Both the position numbers and the translations under genes were made by a program. The notes beneath the pieces are model-generated. The model saw only the letters and a program-made list of their open reading frames with translations, was not told the origin of the DNA and made no database searches. From contig NZ_JAGMWN010000008.1 in NCBI RefSeq assembly GCF_017963645.1, positions 62,001 through 126,000 of the forward strand: a DNA stretch of 64,000 bases, read 5' to 3'. Each line of letters begins with the position of its first letter. Position 1 is the first letter of the stretch. This document shows positions 58,825-64,000 of the stretch, one piece after another. This DNA is from Marivibrio halodurans (GTDB lineage: Bacteria; Pseudomonadota; Alphaproteobacteria; UBA8366; Aestuariispiraceae).

Positions 58825-58834
58825 CACGGTGGCG

Positions 58835-60241
58835 ATGCGTTATATCAGTACAAGGGGAGCGGCGCCCGAACTTGGCTTCGGTGAGGTGCTTCTGACCGGC
58901 CTCGCGCGCGATGGGGGGCTTTACGTCCCGGCATCCTGGCCGCGCTGGAAGGCGGAGGATTGGGCCGCGTTGCGGGGCCTGTCCTATGTCGATCTGGCGA
59001 CCCGGATCATGCACCCTTTCGTCTCCGAGGTGTTGAGCGAGGGGGAACTCGCCGATCTGTGCGCCGACGCCTATGCGGAATTCGATCACGACGCGGTCGC
59101 GCCCCTGAAGCAGCTCGACGCCAATAGCTGGTTGATGGAGCTGTTCCACGGGCCGACGCTCGCCTTCAAGGATTTCGCGCTGCAGGTTTTGGGTCGGCTG
59201 TTCGACCATGTCCTGCGCGAGCGTGGGGAGCGGGTGACCATCGTCGGCGCGACCTCCGGCGATACCGGGTCGGCCGCGATCGAGGCCTGCCGCGACCGGG
59301 AGGCGATCGATATCTTCATCCTGCATCCGAAGGGGCGGACCTCGGAGGTGCAGCGCCGGCAGATGACGACCGTCGAATCCGCGAACGTCCATAATATCGC
59401 GATCGAGGGCAGCTTCGACGATTGCCAGGATCTGGTGAAGGGGCTCTTCAACGATCCCGCCTTCCGGGACGAAATGAACCTCTCCGCCGTCAATTCTATC
59501 AACTGGGCGCGCATCATGGCCCAGATCGTCTATTACGCGCATGCCGCGATCGCGTTGGGCGCCCCGGATCGGGAGGTGGCCTTCGCCGTGCCGACCGGCA
59601 ATTTCGGCAATGTCTTCGCCGCCTATGGCGCGCGGGAGATGGGCTTGCCCGTGGCGCAGCTCATCGTCGGATCGAACGAGAACGACATTCTGACCCGCTT
59701 CCTCGACGGCAACGACATGTCCGTGCGTGACGTGCATGCGACGACCTCGCCCTCGATGGATATCCAGGTTTCCAGCAATTTCGAGCGCCTGCTGTTCGAT
59801 CTGCTGGACCGGGACGGGGAGGCGACGGCGCACGCGATGCAGACCTTCCGGGCGAGCGGGCGGCTACCGTTGGACGAGGCGCGCTGGCACCGTGCGACGC
59901 AGCTTTTCGCCGGTGGACGCTTCACCGATGCCGAGGCCGGCGCCGCCATCGCCGGCGTGCTGGAGGCGACGGGCGAACTGCTGGACCCCCACAGCGCCAT
60001 CGGCGTGTTGGCCGGCTGGACCAAGCGTCGCGACCCCGCGATCCCGTTGGTCAGCGTCGCGACCGCGCATCCGGCGAAGTTCCCGGACGCGGTCGAGGCC
60101 GCCTGCGGCCGGCGCCCGCAATTGCCGGAGCGTCTGGCCGACCTGTTCGAGCGCGAGGAGCGCTATAGCGAGATGCGCAACAATCTGGGCGACCTCCAGG
60201 CCATGATCCGGGCCAACAACCGCGCGGGGGCGCCGGCATGA
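58835..60241 (+). CDS. thrC: Threonine synthase
   Basis: 468 residues, the long form found in many proteobacteria. It converts O-phosphohomoserine to threonine. The start MRYISTRGAAPELGFGEVLLTGLARDGGLYVP (in parts) is diagnostic; PLP-binding Lys112 sits in GPTLAFKDFALQ; the phosphate-binding loop is VGATSGDTGSAAI. A GTG two codons upstream is possible. The M16 gene overlaps its stop by 4 bp. Confidence 0.95.
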   Translation: MRYISTRGAAPELGFGEVLLTGLARDGGLYVPASWPRWKAEDWAALRGLSYVDLATRIMHPFVSEVLSEGELADLCADAYAEFDHDAVAPLKQLDANSWLMELFHGPTLAFKDFALQVLGRLFDHVLRERGERVTIVGATSGDTGSAAIEACRDREAIDIFILHPKGRTSEVQRRQMTTVESANVHNIAIEGSFDDCQDLVKGLFNDPAFRDEMNLSAVNSINWARIMAQIVYYAHAAIALGAPDREVAFAVPTGNFGNVFAAYGAREMGLPVAQLIVGSNENDILTRFLDGNDMSVRDVHATTSPSMDIQVSSNFERLLFDLLDRDGEATAHAMQTFRASGRLPLDEARWHRATQLFAGGRFTDAEAGAAIAGVLEATGELLDPHSAIGVLAGWTKRRDPAIPLVSVATAHPAKFPDAVEAACGRRPQLPERLADLFEREERYSEMRNNLGDLQAMIRANNRAGAPA

Positions 60242-62244: not shown

Positions 62245-63357
62245 ATGGCCGCCAACAAGACGCTTTTGATGTTGCCGGGGGACGGGATCGGGCCCGAGGT
62301 CTCGGCCGAGGTCACCAAGGTGATCGACTGGATGGACAAGCGCCGCGCGATCTCCTTCGATATCGAGCAGGGGCTGGTCGGCGGTGCCGCCTATGACGCC
62401 CACGGCGTGGCCATCACGGACGAGGTGATGGACCGCGCGATGAACACGGACGCCGTGCTGTTCGGCGCGGTCGGCGGGCCGCAATATGATAACCTGGGCT
62501 GGGACGTGCGGCCGGAGGCCGGGCTGCTTCGTCTGCGCAAGGAGATGGATCTCTTCGCCAATCTGCGCCCGGCGGTCACCTTCGACGCGCTGTTGGAAGC
62601 CTCCACCCTGAAGCCGGAGGTCATCCGGGGCCTCGACATCCTGATCGTGCGCGAACTGACCGCCGGCGTCTATTTCGGCGAGCCGCGCGGCATGCAGGAA
62701 TGGCAGGGTCAGGAGCGTTGCATCGACACCCAGTCCTACACCAAGGCGGAGATCGAGCGCGTGGCGGAAGTCGCCTTCGATCTGGCCCGCAAGCGGGGCA
62801 AGAAGGTCACCTCGGTCGAGAAGGCCAATGTCATGAAGACCGGCGTCTTCTGGCGCCAGACCGTGACGGCGCTGCACGGGGCGGGCGGTTATGCCGATAT
62901 CGAGCTCGGCCATATGTATGCCGACAACTGCGCCATGCAGCTCGTGCGCAACCCGAACCAGTTCGACGTGATCGTCACCGACAATCTGTTCGGCGACCTG
63001 CTGTCGGACTGCGCGGCGATGCTGACGGGTTCGCTTGGCATGCTGCCGTCGGCCTCGCTCGGCGCGGTGGACGGCACGGGTCGGCGCAAGGCGCTTTACG
63101 AGCCGGTGCACGGCTCCGCCCCCGATATCGCGGGCGAGGGCAAGGCGAACCCGCTGGCCATGCTGCTTAGCTTCGCGATGGCGCTGCGCTATAGCTTCGA
63201 CTTGCAGGAGGATGCCGATCTGGTGGAGCAGGCCGTTCAGGATGTGTTGAGCGAGGGCAAGCGCACCGCGGATATCATGGGCACGGGCGGGGAAGTGCTC
63301 TCGACCCGGCAGATGGGCGACGCGGTGTGCGCCGCGCTCGATCGCCGCGCGGCCTGA
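62245..63357 (+). CDS. leuB: 3-isopropylmalate dehydrogenase
   Basis: 370 residues. It oxidises and decarboxylates 3-isopropylmalate in leucine synthesis. [16 protein letters not shown] near the start, [20 protein letters not shown]-type substrate loop ([15 protein letters not shown]), DKANV-like [16 protein letters not shown] and [29 protein letters not shown] (in parts) are all in order. GGAGG precedes the ATG by 10 bp. asd follows after a regulated 326-bp leader. Confidence 0.96.
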
Positions 63358-63401
63358 TTGGAGCGAAAGGTCGGGGCGGGGAACGCTGGGGCGGGGAACG
63401 C

Positions 63402-63430
63402 TTGATTATCGCGTCACCCGTCCCTATCTT
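63402..63430 (+). promoter_or_regulatory. asd: Sigma-70-like promoter of the asd leader
   Basis: TTGATT at 63402-63407, a 17-bp spacer and TATCTT at 63425-63430. Start expected near 63437, about 25 bp before the leader ATG. Confidence 0.65.
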
Positions 63431-63442
63431 CCTCGTGAATTA

Positions 63443-63460
63443 GGGGAAAGGGGTTTCCCC
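63443..63460 (+). promoter_or_regulatory. Hairpin covering the leader ribosome-binding site
   Basis: GGGGAAA (63443-63449), loop GGGG, TTTCCCC (63454-63460) pair perfectly just upstream of the leader ATG at 63463, masking the likely Shine-Dalgarno. Confidence 0.5.
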
Positions 63461-63462
63461 AA

Positions 63463-63549
63463 ATGTGGACGGATAAGGCGATGATTCGCAGTCACGCGGC
63501 CCACGTGGCCACGAAAACGACCGCGACGACCAAGACGGGGCCCCGCTAG
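63463..63549 (+). CDS. Threonine-rich leader peptide of asd (attenuation leader)
   Basis: 28 residues plus stop. It begins MWTDKAMIRS and carries the run TKTTATTKT at residues 17-25; seven of 28 codons are threonine (residues 3, 17, 19, 20, 22, 23, 25), far above the normal frequency. An in-frame internal ATG at 63481 could also serve. It stands between leuB and asd and precedes the terminator at 63606-63637, with a matching antiterminator segment between. Threonine is the end product of the asd pathway, so the composition fits a stalling leader like thrL. Too short for ordinary ORF calls and no homologue is claimed. Confidence 0.8.
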   Translation: MWTDKAMIRSHAAHVATKTTATTKTGPR

Positions 63550-63553
63550 GGGA

Positions 63554-63612
63554 CGGCCCGCGCCACCGACGTCTGCCGCTTCAGGGAAGTGAGATGGAAT
63601 TGGATCGGGCCG
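63554..63612 (+). promoter_or_regulatory. asd: Antiterminator pairing of the asd attenuator
   Basis: CGGCCCG at 63554-63560 is exactly complementary to CGGGCCG at 63606-63612, the 5' arm of the terminator. The same segment can instead pair with GGGCC at 63538-63542, right after the last Thr codons. The two states are mutually exclusive, as attenuation requires. Confidence 0.65.
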
Positions 63613-63637
63613 GGACCTTCCCGGCCCGTTGTCGTTT
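63606..63637 (+). terminator. asd: Attenuator terminator before asd
   Basis: A perfect 10-bp stem, CGGGCCGGGA (63606-63615) with TCCCGGCCCG (63619-63628), a 3-base loop and TTGTCGTTT. It ends 46 bp before the asd ATG. A GCGGCCCGAAGGCCGC hairpin follows at 63641-63656. Confidence 0.8.
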
Positions 63638-63683
63638 GGGGCGGCCCGAAGGCCGCGCTGGAAGCAAGGAAGGATGGAGTATA

Positions 63684-64000
63684 ATGGGGTACAAGATCGC
63701 CGTGGTCGGCGCGACCGGCAATGTCGGCCGAGAGATTCTGAAGATCATGGACGAGCGCGGCTTTCCGGCGGACGAGGTGGTGGCTCTCGCCTCCTCGCGC
63801 TCCGTCGGGAGCGAGGTCAGCTTCGGCGAGGACAAGGTTCTGAAGGCCCGGAACCTCGCCGATTTCGACTTCACGGGCACGGATATCGTGCTGTCCTCGC
63901 CGGGCGCCAAGGTTTCGGCCGAATATTCCCCGAAGGCCGCCGCCGCCGGCGCGATCGTCGTCGACAACACTTCGCACTGGCGCATGGACCCGGATTGCCC
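63684..64000 (+). CDS. asd: Aspartate-semialdehyde dehydrogenase (N-terminal part, cut by window edge)
   Basis: The first 105 residues are visible: MGYKIAVVGATGNVGREILKIM with the NADP-binding GATGNVG at residues 9-15, then a SSRSVGSEVSFG loop, DIVLSSPGAKVSAEYSPKAAA and VVDNTSHWRMD, all standard for the enzyme that reduces aspartyl phosphate to the semialdehyde. The catalytic Cys lies beyond the window. AAGGATGGAG precedes the ATG. It is under the apparent attenuator and on the same strand as leuB. Confidence 0.93.
   Translation, partial: MGYKIAVVGATGNVGREILKIMDERGFPADEVVALASSRSVGSEVSFGEDKVLKARNLADFDFTGTDIVLSSPGAKVSAEYSPKAAAAGAIVVDNTSHWRMDPDC

Follow-up and report, generated by a model that had tools for sequence, protein, structure and literature searches.

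The region between leuB and asd at the end of the window (the whole 64 000-nucleotide stretch of DNA that was analysed) contains a promoter, a short leader ORF rich in threonine codons, a segment complementary to one arm of a hairpin and the hairpin itself, all preceding asd (Table 1). This observation, taken from a first-pass annotation of the DNA, is confirmed, and the sequence elements are conserved and covary across relatives. Together they are highly likely to form a ribosome-mediated transcription attenuator of asd.

Organization of the asd leader region

The two flanking ORFs are presumed to be leuB and asd, following the names given in the first-pass annotation. In the sister species (G001) a 218-residue ORF is located between leuB and the leader and the leader still adjoins asd, suggesting that the leader belongs to asd. 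An ORF farther upstream in the window (58829–60241, 3.2 kb before the leader) resembles what we take to be thrC (threonine synthase); it begins 5 nt past the end of the preceding ORF, so that a separate leader does not seem to fit there.

The promoter boxes read directly as TTGATT (63402–63407) and TATCTT (63425–63430) with a 17 nt spacing, as annotated. Upstream of the leader, the pattern CTTGATT-N17-TA is seen again in genera g1, g2 and g4 (G001, G002 and G004) and, by eye, in g6 (G006), where an automated motif search chose another site. A strict sigma-70 scan found no promoters, that of the leader included. The 28-codon ORF is likewise present as described, with the product MWTDKAMIRSHAAHVATKTTATTKTGPR containing seven threonines, six of them within the cluster TKTTATTKT. 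Such a density (at least six Thr in 12 codons) occurs in two of the 817 small ORFs of 10–60 residues on both strands of the 64 kb window. The leader is a short ORF with many codons for one end product of the pathway that would be controlled.

Table 1. Features of the asd leader region and loci of the exported-type leaders
Feature	Position	Strand	Remarks
leuB (3-isopropylmalate dehydrogenase; presumed)	62245–63357	+	370-residue ORF; upstream neighbour, outside the switch
Promoter, alphaproteobacterial type	63402–63430	+	CTTGATT, 17 nt, CTATCTT; predicted from sequence
Leader peptide ORF	63463–63549	+	28 codons, or 22 (a 22-residue leader) from an inner ATG at 63481; start and ribosome-binding site putative
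Regulatory codon cluster T K T T A T T K T	63511–63537	+	From the codon list
Antiterminator 5' arm (predicted)	63554–63560	+	Pairs with 63606–63612; a ribosome at the stop codon would cover it
Spacer hairpin	63563–63603	+	Would bring the antiterminator arms together; from RNA folding only
Terminator-like hairpin	63606–63628	+	10 pairs, nine of them G–C; loop of 3
Weak T-rich tail TTGTCGTTTG	63629–63638	+	From the terminator scan
asd (aspartate-semialdehyde dehydrogenase; presumed), start	63684–64000	+	ATG at 63684; extends past the window; 338 residues
Exported-type leader loci	L005, L007–L009, L012, L015, L016, L021–L027, L029, L030, L032, L113, L195, L196, L200, L203		Upstream of asd

The segment CGGCCCG (63554–63560) is the exact complement of CGGGCCG (63606–63612) in the 5' arm of the hairpin, which agrees with the annotation. 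The annotated terminator of a 10 bp stem and a T-rich tail holds for the stem; the tail TTGTCGTTTG is weak, with merely 5 T in 8. A terminator scan of 62800–64000 returned two sites, the present hairpin and another on the minus strand, versus 0.7 (s.d. 1.0) in shuffled sequences. In the window alone the antiterminator complementarity is not significant (shuffle p = 0.38), and the whole leader RNA folds no better than its shuffles (z = −0.84). These window-only statistics are weak, and the evidence beyond chance is comparative.

A scan of 62500–64000 against Rfam (E up to 1) gave no riboswitch or known leader RNA above threshold, Thr_leader included, and such an RNA was not adopted as a reading of this region. 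A sub-threshold match to SorX at 63569–63632 (E = 0.25; 18.1 bits against a gathering threshold of 46.6) is taken as chance.

Conservation and covariation

The first-pass annotation proposed a comparison of related genomes, and in this comparison the ORF is conserved: a Thr-rich ORF is found upstream of asd in all 14 family genomes examined, each of which has asd. The family leaders are short in 11 of the 14, with endings such as TKTGPR, KTTTGV and TKTRY; the remaining three (G003, G007 and G008) have a longer leader ORF with a signal-like start. A search of 43 genomes of the order gave an asd match in 41. Upstream regions were read in 40 of these, and 33 have either a short Thr-rich leader or an exported-type leader (see below); the seven without one are G017 in family f3 and G014, G019, G024, G033, G035 and G202 in family f2. 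In the 41st genome (G027) asd is represented only by a fragment at the end of a contig, and an exported-type match lies upstream of it. Loci L033 and L035 were left out of the counts as they are the same loci as L005 and L021. Among short-type loci, the N-terminal part of the leader varies by eye and the Thr/Lys end is kept. The outgroup leaders (G176 and G067) have an identical layout, including a T tract.

The complementary segment, which lies at or after the stop codon, differs by lineage: CGGCCCG in the window, CCTCCCG in the sister species, GAAGAACCTC in G002, CGAACCTC in G004 and GACCCCG in G009. Several Rhodospirillales-type MAGs have a GCGGGC-like post-stop segment that is complementary to the terminator 5' arm. 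For 15 short-type loci, one per genus, each segment pairs better with its own arm than with foreign arms (−18.7 versus −15.2 kcal/mol; 0 of 20 000 permutations). The values are similar (−18.3 versus −14.7 kcal/mol; 0 of 20 000) for a hand-picked set of 18 loci in which g1, g5 and g47 are each represented twice, and own-arm preference is also found for 13 loci, roughly one per lineage (2 of 20 000). In a seven-locus family set, the segment of the window pairs better with two foreign arms than with its own arm.

For the terminator helix, an alignment of 11 family sequences (row G006 being misaligned by one column) has 88.2% of cells paired and five double-changed cells, values reached by 2 and 1 of 500 shuffles, respectively; pair types are no more numerous than in the shuffles (293 of 500). 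The stem covariation looked for in relatives is thus seen for the antiterminator as a whole helix, and for the terminator as some compensatory changes with a pair-type number not above shuffles. The complement in the window and the covariation across loci indicate mutually exclusive antiterminator and terminator helices that share one arm.

Threonine and lysine codons

Asd produces the last intermediate that lysine and threonine synthesis share before the two branches part, and its gene stands where the routes to threonine, methionine, lysine and the diaminopimelate of the cell wall branch off. Joint sensing of threonine and lysine would therefore make sense for an asd leader. The last 15 codons of 35 short-type leaders are 41% Thr and 19% Lys (214 and 99 of 517 residues), the set being hand-picked, selected for Thr only and with some genera repeated (g5 four times and g1 twice). 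Lysine accounts for 99 of the 303 non-Thr residues (33%) in this set and for 70 of 218 (32%) in 25 leaders chosen as one per genus or lineage, versus 2 of 70 (3%) in a small control of seven Thr-rich ORF ends elsewhere in the same DNA. At least two lysines are present in the last 15 codons of 33 of the 35 leaders, 23 of the 25 and 43 of 46 leaders from the Phyllobacterium family. Proline, glutamine, histidine and asparagine together contribute 20 of the 517 residues of the 35 leaders; as these other amino acids with CA-rich codons are rare, the enrichment of Thr and Lys is codon-specific and not a mere effect of unstructured CA-rich RNA.

The lysine-codon enrichment suggests that the leader may sense both amino acids. 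The description of the leader as tuned to threonine is sound with regard to the Thr codons and is too narrow, since Lys codons are co-enriched in nearly all leaders. Sensing of threonine alone, with the lysine codons accompanying it for reasons of unstructured RNA, nascent-chain charge or descent, has nearly an even chance of being correct. Threonine is the more common of the two residues, and it also served as the criterion by which the leaders were selected; the excess of lysine over the small control, the recurrence of at least two lysines per leader and the rarity of other CA-rich codons are points against a threonine-only sensor.

Proposed mechanism

The attenuation model that we infer from these elements runs as follows. 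RNA polymerase would start near 63437, as judged from the promoter, with translation of the leader ORF following in its wake. If Thr-tRNA and Lys-tRNA are plentiful, the ribosome would reach the stop codon and cover 63554–63560, the hairpin at 63606–63628 would form and transcription would end prematurely, before asd. When threonine (and probably also lysine) is short, the ribosome would stall on the TKTTATTKT codons, 12–36 nt before the stop codon; the post-stop segment would then be free to pair with the 5' arm of the hairpin before the 3' arm is made, and with the antiterminator paired transcription would proceed into asd.

RNA folding agrees with this order of events. When the RNA is free from 63550, as with a stalled ribosome, folding predicts the antiterminator up to the point at which the 3' arm of the hairpin appears, and when the RNA is free only from 63562, as with a ribosome at the stop codon, the antiterminator cannot form. 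The regulatory codons are so placed that a stall would free the antiterminator and completion of the leader would cover it, given an assumed ribosome footprint. In constrained folds of the complete RNA the terminator is the more stable by 3.6 kcal/mol even if the antiterminator arm is left free, so that the model needs co-transcriptional kinetics. Two results from other genes of the pathway in the same genome count against attenuation: no Thr-rich ORF is found upstream of hom, and the sole candidate upstream of lysC is an ORF with four Thr that ends 470 nt upstream. Ribosome-mediated attenuation of asd is very probably the right class of mechanism.

The first-pass annotation spoke of the full architecture of attenuation. 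This overstates the terminator: the U-tract is weak here, and both the sister species and genus g5 lack it. A hairpin without a T tract in these genomes could indicate that it is an inefficient terminator and that the leader acts mainly at another level, with a stalled or released ribosome governing Rho-dependent termination, the stability of the RNA or the translation of asd. This alternative is considered unlikely; T tracts are clear in genera g2, g4 and g6, in the outgroups G176 and G067 and in the majority of f4 loci, which argues against it. The observations that favour it further come from Rhizobiales-type loci and are described below.

Distribution beyond the order

An ORF with four or more Thr in 12 codons lies within 500 nt upstream of asd in 42 of 80 named loci; by eye, at least six of these ORFs resemble the ends of other genes. 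Represented among the 42 are Mesorhizobium, Brucella/Ochrobactrum, Chelativorans, Nitratireductor, Phyllobacterium and several Rhodospirillaceae MAGs. For the Phyllobacterium trifolii family (57 of 61 genomes read, with three partial-hit genomes and the centre genome left out), 46 of the 57 genomes have at least four Thr in 12 codons before asd and 40 have at least five; the next best amino acid at the latter density is alanine, in 20. The ending is exactly KTTTKTV in 18 of the 46 leaders and KTV in 30. A class-wide draw gave 152 genomes with asd, of which the best-scoring 80 and 11 more were read (G000 and G005 being set aside); at least five Thr in 12 codons were present in five of the 80 best asd matches and in one of the 11 further genomes, indicating an element that is common in some lineages and absent in many. 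Judged by these sequence features, the element is one that recurs in several alphaproteobacterial lineages beyond the present one.

The 20 nt that directly follow the stop codon in leaders of the Phyllobacterium family covary with a segment 25–70 nt downstream (0 of 5000 permutations for 41 hand-picked loci of the 46). Rhizobiales-type loci show complementarity between the post-stop segment and the Shine–Dalgarno region of asd, with strong pairs by eye. Both features would suit control at a level other than transcription termination. Pairing with the Shine–Dalgarno region was unsupported by permutation in a set of 15 hand-picked loci (4008 of 20 000) and borderline in two others (278 of 5000 for 41 loci; 227 of 5000 for 22 loci), and was thus not adopted as the Rhizobiales-type read-out and is kept as a possibility. 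With RNAalifold, the covariation term for 23 Rhizobiales-type sequences was weak (−0.38 of −19.61 kcal/mol). There look to be at least two RNA designs of asd leaders among alphaproteobacterial lineages.

At many of the loci L066–L112 and L218–L274, the leaders, mostly 80–125 nt upstream of asd, often have KTV endings, and their C/U-rich post-stop segment is the one that is complementary to the Shine–Dalgarno region of asd, a pairing for which permutations give borderline support or none.

Relation to known systems

The thrL leader of gammaproteobacteria (Rfam Thr_leader) controls thrABC and contains Thr and Ile codons. The asd leader resembles it in having a Thr-codon leader peptide, a choice between terminator and antiterminator and a place in the threonine pathway, and differs from it in preceding asd, in combining Thr with Lys codons and in the lack of a Thr_leader match in 62500–64000. 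The trp attenuator of Sinorhizobium meliloti (rnTrpL/peTrpL) is also a case of leader-peptide attenuation in an alphaproteobacterium; according to the available part of its description, it concerns tryptophan and trpE, has a 14-residue leader and gives trans-acting products, unlike what is proposed for asd.

The closest published report found is that of SEP5 of S. meliloti, as given in the available sections of PMC10117765; an earlier prediction is possible in Vitreschak 2004 or Lopatovskaya 2010, and the term asd is absent from the main text of PMC2965389, PMC4833913 and PMC1273637. SEP5 is an sORF that is translated, carries six Thr and three Lys codons towards its end, lies in the 5'UTR of a gene named aspartate dehydrogenase and is possibly a leader peptide (PMC10117765, in the sections available). 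This gene is probably asd. The statement in the first-pass annotation that no asd case was known to be described in alphaproteobacteria needs to be limited in this respect: SEP5 is a precedent, in the form of a possible Thr-rich leader only (PMC10117765, same sections). Both SEP5 and the present leader are rich in Thr and Lys, and family-level relatives (the Phyllobacterium family) carry the same kind. In the same sections, PMC10117765 describes no RNA switch for SEP5, whereas a predicted antiterminator and a hairpin are found here; it also states that SEP5 is 'conserved only in Sinorhizobium', whereas Thr-rich asd leaders are present in 46 of the 57 Phyllobacterium family genomes. A role as an asd leader could explain this translated small protein, the role of which is unconfirmed in S. 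meliloti.

Exported-type leaders in sister families

In families f3 and f4 and in parts of f2 and f1, the leader is a homologous protein of 52–73 residues. These proteins mostly have a positively charged start, followed by a hydrophobic stretch, usually an A-x-A motif, an invariant cysteine and a Thr-rich tail that mostly ends in GG or GS. The signal-peptide-like start suggests putative export. A profile search of 42 genomes of the order produced 23 strong matches (E below 1e-8) in 22 genomes, all no more than 670 nt upstream of asd, and eight weak matches (E from 8e-5 to 1e-2) located elsewhere. The leader in the window and six exported-type leaders gave no hit above curated cut-offs against protein families, and a plasmid search with one exported-type protein gave no match. 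SecM-type monitoring leaders also begin with a signal-like segment, and the exported-type asd leaders differ from these in having a Thr-rich end and a terminator instead.

The complementary arm lies within the last codons in six of the seven f4 loci. Own-arm preference is less clear than in the short type: it is found for the eight f3 and f4 loci (415 of 20 000 permutations), although over all 13 exported-type loci it amounts to p = 0.089 in the main arm-fit test (27 of 35 loci, hand-picked), with no convincing fit in f1g3, f1g7 and f2g13. The exported-type leaders as a whole were thus not accepted as attenuators.

A protein of this size with a signal-peptide-like start, together with the three lineages in which no convincing antiterminator is found, could be taken to mean that an unrelated small gene ends with this ORF and that the hairpin serves only as its terminator. 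This explanation is very improbable, given that the short-type N-terminal parts differ by eye with the Thr/Lys end retained, that the antiterminator covaries and that all of the strong exported-type matches occur close upstream of asd. A chance combination of GC-rich repeats and a Thr-rich frame would be in keeping with the weak statistics of the window alone and is scarcely credible in the face of recurrence and covariation in dozens of genomes.

The attenuator in the window may, tentatively, be one form of an old and widespread alphaproteobacterial element that, through one leader, jointly senses threonine and lysine, the two principal end products past the Asd step. The read-out of this element would have changed, being a terminator in the Rhodospirillales type and probably masking of the ribosome-binding site in the Phyllobacterium family. 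Within one order, the leader would have become a conserved exported-type protein that still senses for its own asd. Such leaders would form a natural series, with a sensor that stays and an RNA read-out that seems to change. If both Thr and Lys codons are indeed read, asd would receive feedback from both branches without a regulator protein.

One genome of the order (G016, locus L012) has two exported-type leaders in tandem, about 140–670 nt upstream of asd. Each of the two units has a promoter-like sequence, a complementary segment and a terminator-like hairpin of its own.
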